From an uncultured Bacteroidales bacterium (GTDB lineage Bacteria; Bacteroidota; Bacteroidia; Bacteroidales; UBA932): a stretch of 36,599 bases of DNA. Below are positions 2,926-17,330 of this stretch, piece by piece. How positions within the stretch are numbered: position 1 is the first letter of the stretch; each line of letters starts with the position of its first letter. Location: contig CAMKTW010000002.1 of NCBI GenBank assembly GCA_946415795.1, positions 1 through 36,599 of the forward strand. The letters are read 5' to 3'. A program made the position numbers and the translations under genes. The notes beneath the pieces are model-generated. The model was not told the origin of the DNA, did not search any database, and saw nothing but the letters and a program-made list of their open reading frames with translations.

Positions 2926-4584
2926 TTATAGTGCCGCCAGTATCAACAGCTGAGCTGCAAGCACCCTGAGGAACATAGTGAGGGGGTAAACAGTAGCGTA
3001 GTTCACGGAGGTGTAGTCGGTGCCGTACTGGCTCTGGGCAAACGAGAGCGCCGCAGGGTCTGTGGTGCCGCCCGCCACAAGGCCGCAGATCTCATAGAAA
3101 TCGAGCCTGAGGACAATTCTTGCCAGTAGTATGACGGCCGCCACCGGTATCAGGGTGATAAGGGCGCCGTAAAGTATCCACCAATAACCTCCTGTGGCGA
3201 GACTGCCCACAAAAGTGCGTCCGGCGTCCAGGCCGACCGCCGCCATAAAGAAGGATATGCCTATCTCACGAATCATCATATTGGCGCTCACGGTGGTGTA
3301 TGTGGTAATCTTAAGCTTGGGGCCGAAGTATCCCAGCAGGATGGCAATCAATAGCGGACCGCCGGCCAGACCCAGTTTTATTGGCTGGGGGATACCCGGA
3401 ATGGTCAAGGGGATACTGCCAAAAATCACACCCACGGCAATACCAAAGAATATCGGCACCAGATTGGGATGAGTAAGCGTTTCCGGCTTGTTGCCCACGA
3501 TTTGGGCTACCAGCTGGATGTTCTCTTCAGTACCGACCACCTGGATGCTGTCACCCACCTGAAGTCTCAGGCCTGGTCTGCCCACCAGCTCGATACCGGA
3601 ACGTATCACGCGCGTAACGGTGACATTGTAGTTTTTCCTGAATCCCAGTTCAAAAAGATGTTTGCCGGTGAGGGAAGATTTTGTGATGGAGAGACGGCGG
3701 GACACCATATTGGAGTCCATTTTCTGCCAGTCCTGCTGATGCATCGGAACCTCTTTGCCAAAGATTATGCGGACAGTATCCACATCCTTGTGGTCTGTGA
3801 CGATAAGCAATCTGTCCCCTTCGTGAAGCACTGTCTCCGGCCCGGGAACGGAGATTTCACCGTCGTGGAGGATTCTTGAAGCCACAAAACCATCGCCCAT
3901 ATTGGCCGTCACTTGCGAGATGGTCTTGCCAAACACAGCGGGATTACTCACCTGGCAATGCATACGGCGGGCTGTTTCGCCGGTGTCGTGCATCTCGTCC
4001 AGAATGGCCTTCTCCTTTTCCAGATCTATCTTGAACAGCGATTTAAAGAGCAGGAGCATAACGATTACGCCCAGCACTCCGATTGGATAGGTTACGGCAT
4101 AAGCTGATGCCATCACAGAACTGTCCACAGGGGCATTTACCGCTCCGGAGAGAGTCTGCTGGGCAGCACCCAGCCCGGGAGTGTTGGTCACCGCACCCGA
4201 CATAACGCCAGTGAGAGTCACAAAGTCCAATCCGGTGGTAAGATGCAACACTACGGTGACAGCCACCGCCAGCGATACCAGCAGTATCGCCAGCAGGTTG
4301 AGTTTTACGCCCCCCTTCCTGAACGAGGCAAAAAAGCCCGGCCCGACTTGCAAACCTATTGAAAAGACAAACAGGATCAGTCCGAAATCTTTCATAAACG
4401 ACAGCACCGTAGGGTCGCTGCGGAGTCCGAAATGGCTCAATATGATACCCACGAACAATATCCAGGTGGTACCTATGGATATCCCCCTGATTTTGAACCG
4501 CCCCAGATACAAACCGCCGCCGATTACAGCGGCAAAAAGCAAAATGGAATGGGCTATGCCCGTGCCGGTAAGTATATTCTCCAT
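2926..4584 (-). CDS. YidE/AspT-type putative transporter with TrkA-C-like (RCK_C) domains
   Basis: 552 aa; two hydrophobic halves (GGGLYLGRFKIRGISIGTTWILFVGIILSHFGL...; GPKLKITTYTTVSANMMIREIGISFFMAAVGLDAG) around two RCK_C-like segments. Confidence 0.85.
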   Translation of the reverse strand: MENILTGTGIAHSILLFAAVIGGGLYLGRFKIRGISIGTTWILFVGIILSHFGLRSDPTVLSFMKDFGLILFVFSIGLQVGPGFFASFRKGGVKLNLLAILLVSLAVAVTVVLHLTTGLDFVTLTGVMSGAVTNTPGLGAAQQTLSGAVNAPVDSSVMASAYAVTYPIGVLGVIVMLLLFKSLFKIDLEKEKAILDEMHDTGETARRMHCQVSNPAVFGKTISQVTANMGDGFVASRILHDGEISVPGPETVLHEGDRLLIVTDHKDVDTVRIIFGKEVPMHQQDWQKMDSNMVSRRLSITKSSLTGKHLFELGFRKNYNVTVTRVIRSGIELVGRPGLRLQVGDSIQVVGTEENIQLVAQIVGNKPETLTHPNLVPIFFGIAVGVIFGSIPLTIPGIPQPIKLGLAGGPLLIAILLGYFGPKLKITTYTTVSANMMIREIGISFFMAAVGLDAGRTFVGSLATGGYWWILYGALITLIPVAAVILLARIVLRLDFYEICGLVAGGTTDPAALSFAQSQYGTDYTSVNYATVYPLTMFLRVLAAQLLILAAL

Positions 4585-4617
4585 AAACAGTTGGAAATTC
4601 CGGCCGCAAATATATAA

Positions 4618-5670
4618 TTATTTATTTTTCCTCAGCTTGAATCTCTCGAAAATGGCCGTCTTGCGGGAATGCCGGCGTGCTTTGAGCCGTTCCATTGCCT
4701 CGTTTGAGAGCTTGGGGAAACGCTGGCGCACCTTGCGCACCCACTGCCCCAGGGAGGCGGCGGTGTGACGGTCGCGCTTTTCCGGATACATCTCGTTGAA
4801 ACATACCATAATTCCTGTCTCTTCCACATCGGAAAACTCGTCGTTGATAGCAGTACCAAACATTTTCATAGAAGGGGAACTGTTCATATATGAGTTTACC
4901 AGCGGCGGTATGTTTGTACCCAGTTTACGCACCGCCTCCTTGAGGTTGCGGTAGTCTTCCTTGAAGTCGACATCTTTGAGTATCAGATCCATCAGGCGGG
5001 CGTTGGTTTCTGGCATCACCGGCTTTATGGGACGTACCAGCTCCTCCGGATCGGGAAAATGCTTCCAAAGGAAGTGGAGGATTAGGTCCCGGGAAGGACG
5101 GTCGTATGAGGGATACATCGTCATCTTCCCGAAGAAATAGATGACGGAGGGGTGCTCGTTAACCACAGCTCCGATTGCATCCCACAGATTATCAAGAGCA
5201 TAAAGGGCCTTTGCCCCGGCTTTGGAGCTTTGGTATTCCGGGGTTACAAAGCTGCGCCCCAGCTCCATAACGTGCGGCAGGTATTCCTTGATAAAGGTGT
5301 CGCTGAAGTGGAACATATGCGCGGTGGCCAGGCGGGGCTGACCGTTGTCATAAAACTTCACGTCCGGGCCAAGTATATAACGATAACCGCCCAGGATCGC
5401 TTTGGACTCCGGGTCCCACACCACAATCTGCTTGTAGGGGACATCCATCGTATCAAACTCGTCGATATCTATGCTCAGGCCGCTGCTGCCGCCCGCCCCG
5501 CGGAACGATATCTCACGCAGGCGGCCCACCTCCCTCATCACGTTTGGCGAGTCGTGGGCATCTATTACATATATCAGGTTCCCGCCCTTGTTTGTTTCAC
5601 ACAACATCTTGGCGGGGGTGAGTTCCGTCTCCAGAAGGTCGATGCTTACGGGATCGATAATCTTTTCCAT
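4618..5670 (-). CDS. glsB: GNAT/hemolysin-like N-acyltransferase, probable glycine-lipid synthesis GlsB
   Basis: 350 aa, REISFRGAGGSSGLSIDIDEFDTMDVPYKQIVVWDPESKAILGGYRYILG resembles OlsB/GlsB-type acyltransferases; 2 nt from an O-acyltransferase ORF. Confidence 0.65.
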   Translation of the reverse strand: MEKIIDPVSIDLLETELTPAKMLCETNKGGNLIYVIDAHDSPNVMREVGRLREISFRGAGGSSGLSIDIDEFDTMDVPYKQIVVWDPESKAILGGYRYILGPDVKFYDNGQPRLATAHMFHFSDTFIKEYLPHVMELGRSFVTPEYQSSKAGAKALYALDNLWDAIGAVVNEHPSVIYFFGKMTMYPSYDRPSRDLILHFLWKHFPDPEELVRPIKPVMPETNARLMDLILKDVDFKEDYRNLKEAVRKLGTNIPPLVNSYMNSSPSMKMFGTAINDEFSDVEETGIMVCFNEMYPEKRDRHTAASLGQWVRKVRQRFPKLSNEAMERLKARRHSRKTAIFERFKLRKNK

Positions 5671-8477: not shown

Positions 8478-8508
8478 TTGCAATTACTAAAGTATTTATC
8501 TACATTTG
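8478..8508 (+). promoter_or_regulatory. Bacteroidetes sigma-ABfr-type promoter for the modular lipoprotein operon
   Basis: TTG (8478-8480), 20 nt, TACATTTG (8501-8508); ATG at 8575. Confidence 0.6.
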
Positions 8509-8574: not shown

Positions 8575-11500
8575 ATGAAAAGAAGCTTAACATTAGGCCT
8601 CCTGGCGGTGTTCGCCATCTTCGGTTGCCAGAAGGCTGAGCCGGAAATCCTCACACAGGCAGACAAACAGAAAGCCGCGGTCTTCAGCGCAACTATTGAA
8701 GTGATGGAAGACGGAAACCCCGTGGAGACGAAAACCTCTATGGATACCGATGGCAACGTGCTCTGGAAAAGCGGTGACCAGGTTAGCATCTTTGTCGGCA
8801 GCACCATCAACGAGCACTACCAGGTTACCGATGCGTCCGACGGCAAGACAGCGGCTGCACTGAACAGGGTTGAAAGCCCCGGATTCGTTGCCGGCGGGGA
8901 GATTGATAACAACGTTGCATTCTATCCGTATGCGGCTGCTGCAGAAATAGCAAAGGACGGGGCCTCATATATCATCAGCGGCATAGTTCTTCCTGCAACC
9001 CAATACTATGCAGAAGAAAGCTTTGGAAGCGGGGCGTTCCCCATGACGGCTGTTACAAGTTCGACGCGAGATTATAACCTCAAGTTCAAGAACGTTCTCG
9101 GCGGATTGAAGCTCCAGCTCAAGGGTACGGCCAAAATCACTTCAATAAACATTACCGGCAACAACGGAGAGGTCCTCTGCGGTGAGGCGGCAGTGACGGT
9201 TGCCAACGGAACCGCACCCGCTTTGAGCCTTCCCGACGATTGTACCGACGACAATGCAGATGCGTGTGCCATGACCGTTACCCTCGATTGCGGCACCGGA
9301 GTTCAGCTGAACCCGACGACGGCGACATCGTTTATTATTGCATTGCCTGCCATGACGATGCTCAGCGGCTTCACCGCAAAAGTGACCGATGCGGAAGGTG
9401 CCTCGATGGAGATAATGTCCTCTAAAATACAGACCATCACCCGCTCCAGCCTGCTCAAGATGCCGGCAGTGAATTATGTCGGGACCATACCGGAACCCGA
9501 ATTCGAGTATGTTGACCTGGGCCTGCCCTCGGGTGTGAAATGGGCCGCGTGCAATCTGGGCGCAGATTCACCGGAGGGATACGGAGATTATTATGCCTGG
9601 GGCGAAACGGAGCCTTATTACACTGAAGGCCACAGCCAGGACAATCCTTGCAGCAATTGGCGTACGGGCAGCAGTTCCGGCTATGTCTGGGCTTCTTATA
9701 AATGGTGCGGCGGCAGTGCAACCTCAATGACCCGGTATAACCACCTCAGTGCAAACGGTACGGTGGACAACAAGACTTCGTTAGGCGATTACGACTACAC
9801 GGACGATGCTGCCCGCCAGGCCCTCGGGGGCAGCTGGCGTATGCCCACAGCAGATGAATGGCAGGAGCTGATAGACAACTGCACCTGGACATGGACCACG
9901 CAAAACGGTGTGAACGGAAGGGTTGTCACCGGGCCCAACGGCAACAGCATTTTCCTCCCCGCCGCAGGGACAAGGACAGAAGGGAACCTCTCTGATGCAG
10001 GAGTCTGGGGCAACTATTGGACTTCTTCTCTCCACGCTGCAAACTCAAGCTACGCGGAGAAGGTCAATTTCAGGTCAAATGCTGCTCAGAGCACCAGCAG
10101 GGGTTCACGCTATTACGGCAGGTCAATCCGTCCCGTAACAGATGAAGACATCACTCCAGTGGGCAGCGTGGGCCTCAATAAAGCCAGCACCACAATGACT
10201 GTCGGTGATACCGAGACGCTGACGGCCACGGTCACTCCCTCCGGCGCCACAAACAAGGCGGTCGCATGGCGTTCCAGCGACACCGATGTCGTTACCGTGG
10301 ATGCCAACGGCATGGTGACGGCTCTTTCCACCGGCACGGCAACAGTTGTCGCTGCAGCAAAGAACGGCGGAAAGTCTGCCGTCTGCACGGTGACGGTGAA
10401 TCCTGCAAGTGGCGGCTCCAACGGCCACGATTATGTTGACCTGGGTCTCCCTTCAGGATTGAAGTGGGCTACCTGCAACGTTGGAGCAAGCAGCCCTGAG
10501 GAGTATGGCGATTACTTCGCCTGGGGAGAGACATCTACATATTACAGCAGCCTCGATCCGTTGACCTGGCAAAGCGGCAAGAGCTCCGGCTATAACTGGG
10601 CTTCGTACAAGTGGTGCAACGGCAGCGATACTTCACTGCTCAAGTATAACCACCTTAGTGCAAACGGTACTGTGGACAACAAGACGGAGCTGAGCTGTTT
10701 CAATTATGCCGACGATGCGGCAAGGCAGATTTATGGTGGCAAATGGCGTACACCGACCGACAAAGAGTGGCAGGAACTGATAGACAACTGCACCTGGACA
10801 TGGACAACGCAGAATGGCGTGAAAGGCAGAGTCGTCACCGGCACCAACGGAAAAAGCATCTTCCTCCCCGCCGCCGGGACAAGGACAGGCGTGAACATCG
10901 CCAACTTAGGGAGCTATGGCAATTATTGGTCGTCTTCCCTCCACATGGCAATCCCGAGCTACGCGGAGAAAGTCAGCTTCAGTTCAGGCGAAGCACAGGC
11001 TGTCAGCAGGGGCTGGCGCTATTATGGGCGGTCGATCCGTCCCGTGTGCGAAGAAGGCATCGTTGCCGTAAGCAGCTTGAGTCTCAATAAAGTAAGCATA
11101 ACGCTCGACATAGGCGATACCGAGACGCTCTCGGCTACTGTCAATCCCGCCGGCGCCACAAACAAGTCGGTCGCCTGGAGTTCAGGCAATACTGCCATCG
11201 CCACAGTCAATGCCGGCGGCACCGTGACGGCGCTCTCCGCCGGCACGGCGATAATTGTCGCAACTTCAAAGACCGGCGGTAAGACGGCAGTCTGCACTGT
11301 GACGGTGAATCCCTCCGGTGACGACGGCACGAACGGTCATGCCTATGTTGACCTTGGCCTCCCGTCCGGCGTGAAGTGGGCCACCTGCAATGTCGGCGCA
11401 AGTACTCCGGAAGGCTATGGCGATTATTTCGCCTGGGGCGAAACGGAGCCGTATTATACGAGCGGCCACTCGCAGGATTCCCCCTGCACCAACTGGCGTT

Positions 11501-11985
11501 CAGGCAAGACAGGCTACAATAATGATTCATACAAATGGGGCAGCGGAGGAGATGATGCGCTGGTCACACTTACCAGATATAACACTTGGAGTACAAAGGG
11601 TACTGTGGACAACAAAACCACATTCAGCGATTACGGCTACGTGGACGATGCTGCAAGACAGAATTTCGGAGGCAACTGGCGGACACCGACCTATGCAGAG
11701 TGGACAGAGCTCAGAACAAAATGCACATGGAAGTGGACTACCCGTAACGGAGTGTCCGGCACTCAATTCACCGGGCCCAACGGCAACACCATATTCCTGC
11801 CGGCCGCCGGAACCCGCAGTTATGTCAGTTACTACAACTGGGGGCAAGGCCAGTACTGGTCTGCCTCCCTCAATACGGGTTACCCTACCGCCGCATATAT
11901 GGTTACACTCAGCGATTCATCTATAAGCGAAGATGAGCACATGCCCCGCCAATACGGATACACAATCCGTCCCGTCATAGATTAA
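8575..11985 (+). CDS. Lipoprotein A: Mfa/fimbrillin-like N-terminus + FISUMP-Big_2-FISUMP-Big_2-FISUMP
   Basis: Start moved from 8506 to the ATG at 8575 (MKRSLTLGLLAVFAIFGCQKAEPE, lipobox); three YVDLGLPSG(V/L)KWA...RPV modules and two VTVNP-ending Big_2-like modules. Confidence 0.9.
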   Translation: MKRSLTLGLLAVFAIFGCQKAEPEILTQADKQKAAVFSATIEVMEDGNPVETKTSMDTDGNVLWKSGDQVSIFVGSTINEHYQVTDASDGKTAAALNRVESPGFVAGGEIDNNVAFYPYAAAAEIAKDGASYIISGIVLPATQYYAEESFGSGAFPMTAVTSSTRDYNLKFKNVLGGLKLQLKGTAKITSINITGNNGEVLCGEAAVTVANGTAPALSLPDDCTDDNADACAMTVTLDCGTGVQLNPTTATSFIIALPAMTMLSGFTAKVTDAEGASMEIMSSKIQTITRSSLLKMPAVNYVGTIPEPEFEYVDLGLPSGVKWAACNLGADSPEGYGDYYAWGETEPYYTEGHSQDNPCSNWRTGSSSGYVWASYKWCGGSATSMTRYNHLSANGTVDNKTSLGDYDYTDDAARQALGGSWRMPTADEWQELIDNCTWTWTTQNGVNGRVVTGPNGNSIFLPAAGTRTEGNLSDAGVWGNYWTSSLHAANSSYAEKVNFRSNAAQSTSRGSRYYGRSIRPVTDEDITPVGSVGLNKASTTMTVGDTETLTATVTPSGATNKAVAWRSSDTDVVTVDANGMVTALSTGTATVVAAAKNGGKSAVCTVTVNPASGGSNGHDYVDLGLPSGLKWATCNVGASSPEEYGDYFAWGETSTYYSSLDPLTWQSGKSSGYNWASYKWCNGSDTSLLKYNHLSANGTVDNKTELSCFNYADDAARQIYGGKWRTPTDKEWQELIDNCTWTWTTQNGVKGRVVTGTNGKSIFLPAAGTRTGVNIANLGSYGNYWSSSLHMAIPSYAEKVSFSSGEAQAVSRGWRYYGRSIRPVCEEGIVAVSSLSLNKVSITLDIGDTETLSATVNPAGATNKSVAWSSGNTAIATVNAGGTVTALSAGTAIIVATSKTGGKTAVCTVTVNPSGDDGTNGHAYVDLGLPSGVKWATCNVGASTPEGYGDYFAWGETEPYYTSGHSQDSPCTNWRSGKTGYNNDSYKWGSGGDDALVTLTRYNTWSTKGTVDNKTTFSDYGYVDDAARQNFGGNWRTPTYAEWTELRTKCTWKWTTRNGVSGTQFTGPNGNTIFLPAAGTRSYVSYYNWGQGQYWSASLNTGYPTAAYMVTLSDSSISEDEHMPRQYGYTIRPVID
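9508..10137 (+). repeat. FISUMP module A1
   Basis: YVDLGLPSGVKWAACNLGADSPEGYGDYYAWGETEPYYTEGHSQDNPCSNWR...RYYGRSIRPV. Confidence 0.85.
10159..10403 (+). repeat. Big_2-like linker module in A, first
   Basis: VGSVGLNKASTTMTVGDTETLTATVTPSGATNKAVAWRSSDTDVVTVDANGMVTALSTGTATVVAAAKNGGKSAVCTVTVNP. Confidence 0.85.
10432..11046 (+). repeat. FISUMP module A2
   Basis: YVDLGLPSGLKWATCNVGASSPEEYGDYFAWGETSTYYSSLDPLTWQSGK...RYYGRSIRPV; closely related to A1 at nucleotide level around cacctnagtgcaaacggta and ctgatagacaactgcacctggacatggac. Confidence 0.85.
11062..11313 (+). repeat. Big_2-like linker module in A, second
   Basis: VAVSSLSLNKVSITLDIGDTETLSATVNPAGATNKSVAWSSGNTAIATVNAGGTVTALSAGTAIIVATSKTGGKTAVCTVTVNP. 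Confidence 0.85.
11344..11976 (+). repeat. FISUMP module A3
   Basis: YVDLGLPSGVKWATCNVGASTPEGYGDYFAWGETEPYYTSGHSQDSPCTNWRSG...QYGYTIRPV. Confidence 0.85.
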
Positions 11986-11994
11986 CCGTGCATT

Positions 11995-14439
11995 ATGAAA
12001 AGATATTTATTAACGGTCATTATTGCCGCGTTGGCGATATGCAGTTGCCGGAAAGTGGAGCCGGAAGATGCCGTATCAGGAGGCGACCGGCAGGCTGCGG
12101 TTTTCAGCGCCACCATGGAAGCCATTGAGGACGCCGCCGTTGTCGAGACCAGGACATCTATGGACAAAGAAGGCAACGTGCGTTGGAAAGGCGGGGACCA
12201 GGTGAGTATCTTTGCGGGGAGCACCATCAACGAGCATTATCAGGTGACCGATGCCTCCGACGGCAAGACATCGGCATCGCTGAACATGGTAGAAAGTCCC
12301 GGTTTCGTCGCCGGCGGAGAAATACCGGTCAACGTCGCTTTTTATCCCTATGCGGCGACCGCAGAAATAGCCAGGCGAGGGGACGTGTACGCCATCAGCG
12401 ACATAGCGATGCCTGCTACCCAGACATACGCGGATGGAAGCTTCGCTAACGGGGCGTTCCCTATGGCGGCTGCTACAAGTTCAACGAACGATTACAATCT
12501 CAAGTTCAAGAACGTGCTCGGAGGAGTGAAGCTCCAGCTCAAAGGTACGGCCACGATTTCTTCGATATCTATATCCGGGAACAACAATGAGATACTTTGC
12601 GGCGCAGCGGTCGTGTCGGTCTCAGCTGCCACCACTCCTGCCGTCAGCCTGACCGATGCATCAGCCACAACCGTAACCTTGAATTGCGGCTCGGGCGTAC
12701 AACTTAACACGACAACGGAGACTTCCTTTATCATTGCCCTTCCGCCGATGACAATGACCGGCGGATTCACGGCAACGGTGACCGATTCCGATGGCGCGTC
12801 TATGGAGATAAAGACCACAAAGTCGCAGACCATAACCCGCTCCAACCTGCTCAAGATGCCGGCTGTGAATTATGTCGGAACGCTGCCTGAGCCCGAACCT
12901 GAACCCACCAGCGACTACGTTGACCTGGGACTCCCTTCCGGTCTGAAATGGGCGACCCGCAACCTGGGTAAAGACGGCTTTGTAAGTTCACCCGAGGATT
13001 ACGGAGATTATTACGCGTGGGCAGACCTGGAGCCTTATTACATCAGCCTCGATCCGTTGACCTGGAAGGACGGCAAGACCGGATACAACTGGGCGTCATA
13101 CACCTGGTGCCAGGGCAGCAACACTACATTGACCAGGTACAACAACAAGAGTGCAAATGGCGATGTGGATAACAAAACGGCATTCAGCGGCTACAATTAC
13201 GCAGACGATGCGGCACAGAAACTTGATGGAGGCAAATGGCGTACGCCGACAGATGCCGAGTGGGCAGAGCTGATAACCAACTGCACTTGGACCTGGACCA
13301 CCCAGAACGGGGTGAACGGATGCCTGGTCAGCGGTTCTAATGGTAAAAGCATATTCCTTCCCGCCGCCGGATGCTGGGTAAGCAACAATACAACAAGTAC
13401 CGATACCGGCGACTGGGGCAACTACTGGGCCGCATCTCTCCATACAGACGACCCGAGATATTCGATGCGCGTGAGCTTCAGCTCGAGTTCAGCCAGCAGC
13501 GTCAGCAGGGGCTGGCGCTACTATGGGCGGTCTATCCGCCCCGTTTACGACGAGGCCATCATTCCCGTCGTCAGTATGAGACTCAACAAGACCAGCCTGA
13601 CCATCGAGGCCGGCAATACAGAAACTCTCACAGTCATAACTTCTCCCGCCAACCCCACAAACAAGGCCGCTGTATGGACCTCAAGCAACACCGGCATCGC
13701 TACCGTCGATAACAACGGTACAGTAAGGGGTATGGCTACCGGCACGGCTACGATTACCGCAACTACCGTGAATGGCGGCAAGACTGCTGTCTGCACAGTG
13801 ACGGTAAATCCCTCAACCCACGCCTATGTCGATTTGGGACTCCCGTCCGGCGTCAAGTGGGCAACCTGCAACCTCGGCGCAAGCTCTCCCGAGGGGTATG
13901 GCGATTATTACGCCTGGGGTGAAACGGCCACCTATTACAGCAGCCTGAACCCGTTGACCTGGAAAAGCGGCAAAACCAGCGGATACACCGGGACCTCATA
14001 CAGATGGTGCGAAGCAATTAACGCGTATGACTATAATATGACCAAGTACAACCCGACCGACCATAAAACAGTTCTGGATCTGGCTGACGATGCTGCCCGC
14101 GCAGAATGGGGCGGTAGCTGGCGCACACCTACCGAAGCGGAGTGGAAGGAACTGCTGAGTAATTGTACCTGGACCAGAACCACTCAGAACGGAGTAAGCG
14201 GGCGCCTTGTCAAAAGCAAGATCAACAACAACAGCATTTTCCTCCCTGCTGCCGGAACCATTCACGACAAAACTCTCGCCGCTACCGGTACCGGAGGCTA
14301 CTATATGTCATCTTCCTTCAATACAAGTCAGCCTATCTATTCGAATTATATGTATTTCGATTATATCTCCCAGCAGGAATTCCTGTATTTCTACCAGGGG
14401 GTTCGCTTCAACGGCCGTTCTGTCCGTCCTGTTATGTAA
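11995..14439 (+). CDS. Lipoprotein B: Mfa/fimbrillin-like N-terminus + FISUMP-Big_2-FISUMP
   Basis: 814 aa; lipobox MKRYLLTVIIAALAICSCRKVEPE; N-terminus closely parallels A; starts 9 nt after A. Confidence 0.9.
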   Translation: MKRYLLTVIIAALAICSCRKVEPEDAVSGGDRQAAVFSATMEAIEDAAVVETRTSMDKEGNVRWKGGDQVSIFAGSTINEHYQVTDASDGKTSASLNMVESPGFVAGGEIPVNVAFYPYAATAEIARRGDVYAISDIAMPATQTYADGSFANGAFPMAAATSSTNDYNLKFKNVLGGVKLQLKGTATISSISISGNNNEILCGAAVVSVSAATTPAVSLTDASATTVTLNCGSGVQLNTTTETSFIIALPPMTMTGGFTATVTDSDGASMEIKTTKSQTITRSNLLKMPAVNYVGTLPEPEPEPTSDYVDLGLPSGLKWATRNLGKDGFVSSPEDYGDYYAWADLEPYYISLDPLTWKDGKTGYNWASYTWCQGSNTTLTRYNNKSANGDVDNKTAFSGYNYADDAAQKLDGGKWRTPTDAEWAELITNCTWTWTTQNGVNGCLVSGSNGKSIFLPAAGCWVSNNTTSTDTGDWGNYWAASLHTDDPRYSMRVSFSSSSASSVSRGWRYYGRSIRPVYDEAIIPVVSMRLNKTSLTIEAGNTETLTVITSPANPTNKAAVWTSSNTGIATVDNNGTVRGMATGTATITATTVNGGKTAVCTVTVNPSTHAYVDLGLPSGVKWATCNLGASSPEGYGDYYAWGETATYYSSLNPLTWKSGKTSGYTGTSYRWCEAINAYDYNMTKYNPTDHKTVLDLADDAARAEWGGSWRTPTEAEWKELLSNCTWTRTTQNGVSGRLVKSKINNNSIFLPAAGTIHDKTLAATGTGGYYMSSSFNTSQPIYSNYMYFDYISQQEFLYFYQGVRFNGRSVRPVM
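12916..13545 (+). repeat. FISUMP module B1
   Basis: YVDLGLPSGLKWATRNLGKDGFVSSPEDYGDYYAWADLEPYYISLDPLTWKDGK...RYYGRSIRPV. Confidence 0.85.
13558..13812 (+). repeat. Big_2-like linker module in B
   Basis: IIPVVSMRLNKTSLTIEAGNTETLTVITSPANPTNKAAVWTSSNTGIATVDNNGTVRGMATGTATITATTVNGGKTAVCTVTVNP. Confidence 0.85.
13825..14436 (+). repeat. FISUMP module B2
   Basis: YVDLGLPSGVKWATCNLGASSPEGYGDYYAWGETATYYSSLNPLTWKSGK...RFNGRSVRPVM. Confidence 0.85.
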
Positions 14440-14464
14440 AAACCATTATTTAATACTTTAAAAT

Positions 14465-14590
14465 ATGAAAAAGACAATGAAAACCAGTGTTTACAACGCT
14501 CCTGTATGCGTAGTTCTTTCTGTGGGCGCTCAGGGCGTAATCTGCGGCAGCGAAACTGAAAAGGTGACCGAGACCCAGGGCGAATGGTAG
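14465..14590 (+). CDS. Small protein, 41 aa, not in the supplied ORF track
   Basis: Read directly: MKKTMKTSVYNAPVCVVLSVGAQGVICGSETEKVTETQGEW*; starts 25 nt after B ends, stops 24 nt before C starts, same strand. Confidence 0.6.
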   Translation: MKKTMKTSVYNAPVCVVLSVGAQGVICGSETEKVTETQGEW

Positions 14591-14614
14591 AACAGGGTAA
14601 ATAGCAGTTTTACC

Positions 14615-16132
14615 ATGAAAAGAATCATATTATCAGCCCTTCTGGTTCCGCTCTTGATAAGCAGCTGCCACAAGGTTGATGCAGACAGTGCTGCCTCCGC
14701 CGACAACCGACAGGCAGTTGTCTTTACCGCCACTATGGAGGCTATAGCTGACGATGCAGCTGCCGTTGACACCAAGACATCCATGGGCAATGGGGGCAGA
14801 GTCCTCTGGAAACAGGGCGACCAGGTGAGTATGTTCTCAGGCAGCACCATCAATGAACGCTACCAGGTCTCCGATGATTCAGATGGCAAAACATCTGCAA
14901 CATTGTACCGGGTTACAAGTCCCGGCTTCGTCGCCGGAGGGGAGTTGCCTGTCAACGTTGCATTTTATCCTTACGCAGCCAGTGCGGGAATCGCCAGAAA
15001 GGGCCAAGGGGCGTATGTCATCAGCGACTTATCGCTTCCCGCAACCCAGAACTGTGCCTTGGAGAGCTTTGGTAACGGAGCCTTCCCGATGGTAGCAGTC
15101 ACAAGTTCGGCTCTTGACAATGAGCTCTTGTTCAAGAACGTTATCGGCGGTCTCAAACTCCTTTTAAAAGGCAATGCCGCCATAACCTCGATCAGCGTAA
15201 CCGGCAATAACAACGAGAAACTCTGCGGCGCAGCGGAGATTACCGTTTCTAACACCGACCTGCCCTCCATCAAACTGACAGATGCTGCAGCCAGTACCGT
15301 GACTCTGGATTGCGGCGACGGTGTCCAGCTTGAAGAGGAAACCGCAACTGCTTTCATCATCGCCCTTCCGCCTGTGACAATGACCAAGGGCTTCACCGTA
15401 ACCGTTACCGACAGCCAGGACAACCAGACGGAGATTAAAACCAATAAAGCTCAGACCATCACCCGCTCCAACCTCCTCAGGATGCCAGCGGTGACAATCG
15501 AGGGCGCTGCGGCCGACGAGCATCAGTATGTTGATCTCGGCCTGACCTCCGGCCTGAAGTGGGCAACCTGTAACATCGGTGCGGACGCTCCTGAAGAATA
15601 CGGCGATTATTTCGCCTGGGCTGAGACAGAACCGTATTACAGCAGCCTGGCACCTCTCGCTTGGAAAGACGGCAAAACCGGATATAGCTGGGGGACATAC
15701 ACCTGGTGCGAAGGCTCTTACAATACCCAGACCAAGTATTGCGTAAGCAATTCTTTCGGCATCGTGGACAACAAGACTGTCCTTGAAGCGGAGGATGATG
15801 CCGCTTATGCCAATTGGGGGAGTAGCTGGCGTATGCCTACCGACGATGAATGGACAGAGCTGATGACTGAATGCGACTGGACCTGGACCACCCTGAACGG
15901 AGTCAACGGCAGGCTTGTCACCGGTCCTAACCACAACAGCATATTTCTGCCTGCTGCCGGCAGTTGGTTTGAAACCGACCTCGAGGATACCGGCGCTGTC
16001 GGCCTCTACTGGTCTTCTTCGCTCGGTACAACTTCTGACTACGGATGGTGTACATCCTTAGACTCGTACAGTCTATTCCACACAAGCTACTGCAGATTCT
16101 TCGGTCAGTCTATACGTCCTGTTAAAGATTAA
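14615..16132 (+). CDS. Lipoprotein C: Mfa/fimbrillin-like N-terminus + one FISUMP module
   Basis: 505 aa; lipobox MKRIILSALLVPLLISSCHKVDAD; same N-terminal domain as A and B, then YVDLGLTSGLKWATCNIGADAPEEYGDYFAW...GQSIRPVKD. Confidence 0.9.
   Translation: MKRIILSALLVPLLISSCHKVDADSAASADNRQAVVFTATMEAIADDAAAVDTKTSMGNGGRVLWKQGDQVSMFSGSTINERYQVSDDSDGKTSATLYRVTSPGFVAGGELPVNVAFYPYAASAGIARKGQGAYVISDLSLPATQNCALESFGNGAFPMVAVTSSALDNELLFKNVIGGLKLLLKGNAAITSISVTGNNNEKLCGAAEITVSNTDLPSIKLTDAAASTVTLDCGDGVQLEEETATAFIIALPPVTMTKGFTVTVTDSQDNQTEIKTNKAQTITRSNLLRMPAVTIEGAAADEHQYVDLGLTSGLKWATCNIGADAPEEYGDYFAWAETEPYYSSLAPLAWKDGKTGYSWGTYTWCEGSYNTQTKYCVSNSFGIVDNKTVLEAEDDAAYANWGSSWRMPTDDEWTELMTECDWTWTTLNGVNGRLVTGPNHNSIFLPAAGSWFETDLEDTGAVGLYWSSSLGTTSDYGWCTSLDSYSLFHTSYCRFFGQSIRPVKD
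15527..16129 (+). repeat. FISUMP module C1
   Basis: Same YVDLGL...SIRPV module; shares the SSLxPLxWKDGKTGYxW variant segment with A2, B1 and B2. Confidence 0.8.
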
Positions 16133-16159: not shown

Positions 16160-16194
16160 ACAAAGGCCCCGGTGCTGAGCGCCGGGGCCTTTGT
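16160..16194. terminator. Bidirectional terminator-like inverted repeat between convergent genes
   Basis: acaaaggccccgg (16160-16172) and ccggggcctttgt (16182-16194), 13-bp perfect arms. Confidence 0.7.
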
Positions 16195-16214: not shown

Positions 16215-17330
16215 TCAGAATGTCTTCCTGTATGCGCGTCTGCGCATAAATGGAATCGTCTTATACTCCCCGAACAGCGACTGTACCTTATAGTTCTCTT
16301 CAAGCTGAGGATTGAAGATGATGCTCCTGATACCCCTGCGGATGCAGTTTTCGTGGATATGCTTGAACATCAGCACAGGGACTCCGCAAGCCTGATACTC
16401 AGGCAGGACACCTATCAGCAGCGCCTCCAGGGTGTCGTTGTGGCGCAGGGCCCTCAAGATATGAAAGAGGCCGAACGGGAACAACTTCCCCCTGCCCTTC
16501 TTTACCGCCTTGGAGAGCGACGGCACGCAGAACAGGAATCCCGCAGGGCGGTCGTCCTTATCAACCACCACCGCCACGAAATCCTTATCCAGAATAGGCA
16601 CGTATGTTCTCAGATAGTTCTTTATCTGTTTGTCGGTCAGGGGAGAAAAACCCTCCAATGGAGCAAAGGCCTCATTGTAGGCGTGAAATATCTCCATCCC
16701 GTACCGGCGGCACATAGCCTGCATACTCAGGCCTGTGACTGTGTGCACCCCAAACCGCTGCTCTACCAGTGGCGCATACTGGAACATAGGCGGCAGCTGG
16801 GGAGAGACCTCCAAATAGCGCTGGGTCCAGTCGACCTCCTTCTCAAATCCCAGTTTCTCCAGCATAGGGCCATAGTACGGATAGTTGTAAAGGCAGGTGA
16901 AAGGACTCAGATGGTCAAAACCGTCTGTGAGCAGCCCCTCCTTGTCCATATCGGTGAATCCCCAGGGGCCGCGGATTTCGCTCCGGCCGCGCTCCCTGCC
17001 CCAGGCCTGCACAGTCTCTATCAGGGTGCGCAGCACCTCCTCATCCTCTACAAAATCAAGCCAGCCAAAGCGCACGATACCTTCACGGTCATCGGCCTTA
17101 TGGTTGATTATCGCCGCCACACGACCCGCAATACGGCCATCCTTATACGCCAGAAAGCAATCTGCCTCGCAGAAGTCGTATGCTCCGTTCTTGGCGGGAT
17201 TGAAGGTGTCATACTCGTCACCCTGGAGGGCAGGAACCCAGTTGGGACAATCTTTATAGAGCTTTTCGGGGTATGTGATAAATGTCTTAAGCTGGCGGCG
17301 GTTGGCAACCCGGACTATTTCTACTGACAT
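16215..17330 (-). CDS. GNAT-fold N-acyltransferase-like protein; candidate bacterial ceramide synthase-type enzyme
   Basis: 371 aa; FNPAKNGAYDFCEADCFLAYKDGRIAGRVAAIINHKAD...FGWLDFVED...IRGPWGFTDMDKEGLLTDGFD; overlaps the start of an ACP gene. Confidence 0.7.
   Translation of the reverse strand: MSVEIVRVANRRQLKTFITYPEKLYKDCPNWVPALQGDEYDTFNPAKNGAYDFCEADCFLAYKDGRIAGRVAAIINHKADDREGIVRFGWLDFVEDEEVLRTLIETVQAWGRERGRSEIRGPWGFTDMDKEGLLTDGFDHLSPFTCLYNYPYYGPMLEKLGFEKEVDWTQRYLEVSPQLPPMFQYAPLVEQRFGVHTVTGLSMQAMCRRYGMEIFHAYNEAFAPLEGFSPLTDKQIKNYLRTYVPILDKDFVAVVVDKDDRPAGFLFCVPSLSKAVKKGRGKLFPFGLFHILRALRHNDTLEALLIGVLPEYQACGVPVLMFKHIHENCIRRGIRSIIFNPQLEENYKVQSLFGEYKTIPFMRRRAYRKTF

Follow-up and report, generated by a model that had tools for sequence, protein, structure and literature searches.

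The DNA stretch analyzed in this work (the window) comprises 36,599 nucleotides (nt) and constitutes contig C2 (CAMKTW010000002.1) of a 1.6-Mb metagenome-assembled genome (MAG) of an uncultured Bacteroidales bacterium (GenBank assembly GCA_946415795.1). This MAG is 73% complete, and each gene absence reported below for the window's own genome carries that scope. Its close relatives are rumen or reticulum MAGs from goat, sheep, and water buffalo. Within the window, we characterized three adjacent genes, A, B, and C, encoding paralogous lipoproteins, in which a common N-terminal domain (N-domain) is followed by three, two, and one copies, respectively, of a FISUMP-type module, i.e., the putative head of the protein.

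Organization of the A-B-C locus

Genes A, B, and C are complete open reading frames (ORFs), whose products each begin with MKR and carry a lipobox cysteine at residue 18 (within IFGC, ICSC, and ISSC, respectively). The residues past this cysteine (QKAEPE, RKVEPE, and HKVDAD) are reminiscent of the acidic export signal carried by surface lipoproteins of Bacteroidota. The proteins are built of an N-domain of about 285 amino acids (aa) and modules of about 200-210 aa, separated in A and B by Big_2 linkers of about 95-100 aa (Table 1), and pairwise identities amount to 59-70% between the N-domains and 52-73% between the six modules. Consecutive modules start 924 and 912 nt apart in A and 909 nt apart in B, while the A-B intergenic gap is 9 nt long. 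An initial, sequence-only reading of this region had pointed to three neighboring paralogs with a lipobox, exactly three, two, and one FISUMP-type modules, Big_2-like linkers, module starts spaced by about 910-924 bp, and a 9-nt A-B gap, and all these elements were confirmed. It missed the 41-aa ORF located between B and C, as well as the link to diversity-generating retroelements (DGRs) described below.

The same reading had assumed a single strong promoter upstream of A. A sigma-70 promoter scan found no strong promoter, but a Bacteroidales-type candidate was recognized, which could be aligned and is kept upstream of A in three other MAGs (L017, L018, and G006:C74). With this candidate before A and a strong hairpin after C, past which a convergent gene lies (16215-17330), A, B, the small ORF, and C probably constitute one operon, as had been proposed.

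Table 1. Features of the A-B-C locus (positions refer to the window; N, N-domain; M, module; B in domain formulas, Big_2 linker).
Feature	Position	Strand	Basis
Bacteroidales-type promoter candidate: TTG (8478-8480), 20-nt spacer, TACATTTG (8501-8508)	8478-8508	+	sequence; conserved in relatives
Gene A, lipoprotein, 1136 aa, N-M-B-M-B-M	8575-11985	+	ORF, Pfam, domain profiles
A signal peptide, lipobox (Cys18), and fimbrillin-like N-domain	8575-9504	+	alignment; fold match was made on C
A module 1 (FISUMP/Lcl_C head)	9511-10137	+	Pfam, module comparison
A linker 1, Big_2	10138-10434	+	Pfam PF02368
A module 2	10435-11046	+	Pfam, module comparison
A linker 2, Big_2	11047-11346	+	Pfam PF02368
A module 3 (C-terminal head)	11347-11976	+	Pfam, module comparison; orthologous group 100/99
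Gene B, lipoprotein, 814 aa, N-M-B-M	11995-14439	+	ORF, Pfam, domain profiles
B signal peptide, lipobox, and N-domain	11995-12912	+	alignment
B module 1	12919-13545	+	module comparison; orthologous group 100/100
B linker, Big_2	13546-13827	+	Pfam PF02368
B module 2 (C-terminal head)	13828-14433	+	module comparison, module tree
Small ORF, 41 aa, MKKTMKTSVYNAPVCVVLSVGAQGVICGSETEKVTETQGEW, between B and C	14465-14590	+	sequence; homologues upstream of N-domain lipoproteins
Gene C, lipoprotein, 505 aa, N-M	14615-16132	+	ORF; AlphaFold2 model, mean pLDDT 86
C signal peptide, lipobox, and fimbrillin-like N-domain	14615-15526	+	alignment, predicted fold
C module 1	15530-16123	+	module comparison, module tree
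Hairpin AAAGGCCCCGG...CCGGGGCCTTT, probable terminator	16160-16194	+	-33.0 kcal/mol over a 55-nt stretch

Domain composition and predicted fold

Pfam searches placed two Big_2 domains in A and a single one in B, and Big_2 was also recovered by the structure search. The Lcl_C model (PF07603) scored 56.3 bits in A, 20.7 in B, and 13.7 in C against a curated cut-off of 34.9, which only A passes, and the FISUMP model (TIGR02145) reached 32.2 in A and 19.9 in B, under its cut-off of 41.65. Among the relatives of the module, 35 of the 46 were matched by Lcl_C, and the most variable part of the module family is its end segment (2.14 vs. 1.25 bits). The features expected of FISUMP/Lcl_C proteins, i.e., an extracytoplasmic location and, often, a lipoprotein character and repetition, find their counterparts in the Cys18 lipobox of all three products and in the three, two, and one module copies. 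It was previously described that Lcl_C/DUF1566, the family to which we assign the modules, is similar to Fib_succ_major (PMC4159848).

The Mfa/fimbrillin-like character of the N-terminus, proposed earlier, holds for the predicted fold and fails at the level of Pfam models. The Mfa_like_1, Mfa2, and FimA models did not match the N-domain in any of its relatives (0/39), and membership in the Mfa/FimA families by sequence was rejected, as the sequence-model searches gave no match. The AlphaFold2 model of C matched the Bacteroides "cell adhesion" fimbrillin-type structures 3t2l, 3ufi, and 4k4k with a probability of 1.00, and, more weakly, Mfa3 and Mfa2 of P. gingivalis (5nf4 and 5nfi). Judging from this model, the N-domain of A, B, and C is fimbrillin-like at the fold level and lies outside the Pfam sequence models.

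Inheritance of the three-two-one array

Domain profiles run on related genomes revealed the same three-two-one order in L017 (RGIG8287) and L018 (RGIG6579), and in G006 (RGIG3478) gene A ends one contig, while B, the small ORF, and C open another, which fits a third, broken array. Recurrence of the array in other MAGs in the same order indicates that it is neither a chance arrangement nor an assembly artefact. Although the three complete arrays have drifted apart to about 74-82% nt identity, they keep the order and number of their parts. L017 shares with the window the glycosyltransferase gene located upstream, whereas the neighborhood in L018 is rearranged.

The array was seen in four of the 26 genomes of the genus. 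In six other members the glycosyltransferase gene is directly followed by the p545 gene, with no array, and in G013 the array site is occupied by a gene for a BspA-type leucine-rich-repeat lipoprotein (L155:6173-8896 (+)), so that the glycosyltransferase-p545 site holds different surface proteins depending on the species.

In a tree of 45 modules, the heads grouped by position across species for A3 (100/99), B1 (100/100), B2 (100/96), and C1 (100/98), and more weakly for A2 (90/61), whereas A1 did not form one exclusive group but fell, together with A2 and B1, into a clade with 98/96 support. The inner modules (A1, A2, and B1) are thus closely related to one another, while each C-terminal module (A3, B2, and C1) stands apart. 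The ratio of nonsynonymous to synonymous substitution rates (dN/dS) between the window and L017 was 0.07-0.29 per segment, compared with 0.10 for the neighboring glycosyltransferase gene, so by this measure every part of A, B, and C is under purifying selection. Positive selection on the heads left no dN/dS sign in this comparison and was discarded. The positional grouping of modules, together with purifying selection, points to a set that was inherited and maintained, and on these sequence comparisons the three-two-one arrangement is a single inherited event. The comparison of module numbers at related loci, suggested by the sequence-only reading, thus gave a stronger result than the original claim, with the order inherited across species.

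A different history was observed for gene D, a single three-module paralog located on contig C1 of the same MAG and having an orthologous site in G015 (L012:3003-6269 (-) vs. L030:3399-6698 (+); L142). The flanks of the two loci are mostly 87-100% identical (nt). The N-domains are about 97% identical (aa), compared with about 50-55% for the three-module arrays, which at the nt level are mostly 41-74% identical. Head arrays are thus exchangeable behind a constant pedestal; at the three-two-one locus no such exchange was seen.

DGRs in related genomes

Three array-bearing relatives (G006, G010, and G015) carry DGRs, whose targets end in the same module as A, B, and C. The cassettes, each composed of a variable repeat (VR), an Avd-like ORF, a template, and a reverse transcriptase (RT) gene, are located at L126:2141-5182, L152:1000-3824, and in L153 (minus strand). 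In G006, a single contig carries a small ORF, an N-M lipoprotein gene with the VR (2141-2331), the Avd-like ORF (matching NF033474 with an E-value of 3e-5 and bAvd with 0.004), the template (3343-3533), and the RT gene (3698-5182). The mismatches between template and VR fall mostly at template adenines, i.e., 23 of 26 in G006, 29 of 31 in G010, and 24 of 25 in G015. The Asn-rich template encodes a peptide (GNYWSSSLNTDNPNNAWNVNFNSDEVNRNNNNRYNGQSVRAV) with homology to the final ~62 aa of each module of A, B, and C, so that all of them have a homologous variable domain at the C-terminus. The N-domain of the G015 target differs from the A/B/C type and is similar to that of a gene on contig C99 (L015) of the window's own MAG, which stops at the contig end inside its module.

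When a DGR mutates AAC codons, the third base stays as it was, and the modules were examined for such a footprint. At 20 AAC/AAT template codons, true VRs showed 12-17 first-position and 0-1 third-position changes. The respective values for the window were 8/11 (A1), 8/10 (A2), 10/10 (A3), 10/8 (B1), and 14/12 (B2), so judged by codon positions against the template of one relative, these five modules lack an adenine-type footprint. The C head was intermediate, with first-position changes at 17/20 and third-position changes at 7/20. The tandem modules of A and B differ above all at third codon positions, which is the pattern of ordinary divergence (A1 vs. A2: 12, 13, and 24 end-segment differences at positions 1, 2, and 3). 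In three other Bacteroidales proteins (L040, L058, and L076), by contrast, the tandem heads have scaffolds differing mainly at third positions and ends differing at positions 1 and 2 (end-segment differences by codon position: 12, 13, and 3; 15, 20, and 5; 15, 17, and 3, respectively), so that tandem heads elsewhere do show a DGR-like footprint. Among 162 modules, the footprint was stronger in last than in internal ones (one-sided Mann-Whitney p = 2e-6, a descriptive value, as the rows are related and the internal group includes template copies). Active targeting of A, B, and C by a DGR was rejected on codon positions and tandem comparisons, and these genes appear to be fixed copies, with heads mostly inherited by position.

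Proposed function and alternative explanations

In our opinion, A, B, and C are probably fixed multi-headed surface adhesins, belonging to a family whose end heads can be DGR targets. The operon would then produce three self-anchored outer-membrane lipoproteins, in which the fimbrillin-fold N-domain would form a pedestal bearing a chain of three, two, or one FISUMP/DUF1566 heads with Big_2 Ig spacers. The heads, presumably of DGR ancestry, would have a surface ligand as their target, and glycans or proteins of feed, host mucosa, or other microbes are the likeliest candidates. The binding face would be formed by the variable C-terminal ~62 residues of each head, and the number of heads would determine avidity. 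In relatives, the DGR target is a single-module (C-like) or related lipoprotein, whose terminal head is mutated via the Asn-rich template, whereas A, B, and C would be fixed copies held by purifying selection. It is possible, though doubtful, that the two states are linked by a sequence of events, in which a DGR diversifies a terminal head, after which heads that prove useful are copied into tandem chains and paralogs and so become fixed beyond the reach of the DGR. If so, the three-two-one operon would preserve retired heads as a conserved store, while the DGR-driven single-head cousin keeps exploring.

Several observations weigh against the proposal of fixed adhesins. The footprint test used one template, from a relative, with codon bias uncorrected, and the pattern in the C head may be an old DGR trace, in which case "fixed" would mean "formerly diversified" for C. 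A DGR RT was not found in the window's own MAG, nor was one found in the three genomes with tandem footprints (L040, L058, and L076), one of the searches having no positive control among its genomes, so that the footprint there is deduced from codon positions. When the C model was compared by Foldseek with PDB and BFVD, and the A model with PDB, N-domain and Big_2 matches dominated the results and the C-type-lectin fold of the module did not emerge. Profile searches of the module and of N-domain plus module against PDB sequences gave no match; a lectin-like fold of the module is suggested by family homology.

In another reading, A, B, and C would serve as alternative tip pilins of a type V pilus, with the fimbrillin-like domain polymerising on a stalk made elsewhere and the modules binding at different reach. 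In its favor are the fold of the N-domain, with its weaker matches to Mfa3 and Mfa2, and the build of tip pilins, which as a rule have an additional ligand domain at the C-terminus and are diversified by DGRs in Bacteroides (PMC12632263). Moreover, Mfa_like_1 proteins are encoded elsewhere in the same MAG, e.g., a cluster of four (PF13149; about 560-680 aa) on contig C60 (G000:C60:1381-8828). However, no stalk or anchor gene was found within the locus, FimA (PF06321) is absent from all four genomes examined, Mfa2 (PF08842) gave a weak partial match in two of them, the N-domains have no Mfa_like_1 match, and three putative tips in one stalk-less operon would be unusual. We therefore regard this alternative as rather unlikely; of the earlier suggestion of surface or pilus-tip adhesins, the adhesin-like build stands and a pilus-tip role is not supported by the sequence data.

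A slimmer chance is given to the view that the numbers three, two, and one have no meaning of their own and result from tandem duplication and module gain or loss, inherited once in a small clade and neutral. The array, confined to four genomes, represents one evolutionary event, other tandem clusters have other head numbers (2+2, 2+1, and 1+2), which makes three-two-one one inherited arrangement among many, and at locus D the module number varies among relatives (three, three, and, in G016, one). Against neutrality, order and number were kept in the three complete arrays, with every part constrained. Conservation and constraint speak for a function of each gene, but not for a role of the gradient as such, and an exclusive meaning of the three-two-one numbers is weakened by the many other module counts. 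The "length-graded" set proposed earlier is retained as a description of geometry only.

It is very improbable that an unassembled DGR actively targets A, B, and C from a remote site and makes their heads hypervariable within the population: the DGRs of relatives, the truncated C99 gene with its N-domain resembling the G015 target (L152), and the residual first-position bias of the C head are outweighed by the lack of footprint in the five other heads, their third-position divergence in A and B, purifying selection, and inheritance of A3, B1, B2, and C heads by position.

The small ORF and other features

The small ORF is present in the L018 and G006 arrays and absent from the B-C gap of L017. 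It gave no Pfam or NCBIfam match and has no apparent signal peptide. It belongs to a family of ORFs of about 35-50 aa with the pattern Y-x-A/S-P...VIC.S..E.V.E..GEW, located directly upstream of many N-domain lipoprotein genes, and also of one DGR target (window 14465-14590; L011:3183-3317 (-); L012:6297-6428 (-); L126:551-709; about 20 more). On contig C1 of the same MAG (L011:3521-3964 (-)), a small ORF continues in frame into the second half of a FISUMP module (TETQGEWKELMTKC), a fusion that apparently arose by a deletion at a similar EW motif, and an intact second small ORF and a one-module gene come next. In G006 (L028:813-1794), gene C has lost most of its N-domain (about 690 nt), and what is left is the small ORF and a module sharing 98-99% identity with the C module of the window. 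At the end of the window, an ORF running into the contig end (35363-36598 (-)) encodes at least 411 aa, including about five Big_2-like domains.

Comparison with known systems

Multi-copy FISUMP lipoproteins are already known, and repeated TIGR02145 copies in lipoproteins are typical of Fibrobacter succinogenes. A, B, and C resemble FISUMP/Fib_succ_major (TIGR02145, PF09603) and DUF1566/Lcl_C (PF07603) proteins by module homology, and differ from them in the alternation of heads and Big_2 domains, in the fimbrillin-like pedestal beneath, and in the conserved three-two-one arrangement of a probable operon.

The earlier statement that no system of this architecture had been described was overstated, as lipoproteins combining fimbrillin and FISUMP domains are known as DGR targets (PMC4159848). 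Bacteroidales DGR variable proteins combine Mfa2 with Fib_succ_major or Big_2/Big_3 domains (PMC4159848), and they share with A, B, and C the domain vocabulary (a fimbrial lipoprotein N-domain, a C-terminal FISUMP head, and Ig linkers) and a homologous variable segment; close relatives of C are themselves DGR targets. The proteins of the window differ in having internal as well as terminal heads and no clear adenine-directed footprint, and no RT or template was found in their incomplete genome. Actively diversified DGR lipoproteins are thereby linked to fixed multi-headed relatives in the same bacteria, which makes it possible to ask about the fate of a binding domain after DGR mutation, and whether bacteria build multivalent adhesins from such domains. 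Rumen Bacteroidales gain a defined candidate adhesin set and a small linked ORF.

Type V pilus tip pilins (PMC12632263) are similar to A, B, and C in the lipobox, the fimbrillin-like fold, and the C-terminal ligand-type domains, and differ in the stalk or anchor missing from the locus, the lack of FimA in the genomes, and the position of the N-domain outside Mfa_like_1, Mfa2, and FimA. A further similarity in build concerns LdtA of Legionella. The C-terminal variable domain of LdtA has a C-type-lectin fold. As a surface lipoprotein diversified by a DGR (Arambula et al. 2013, cited in PMC4159848), LdtA shares the general build proposed for A, B, and C, but it is single-headed, has another N-terminal part, and is actively diversified.

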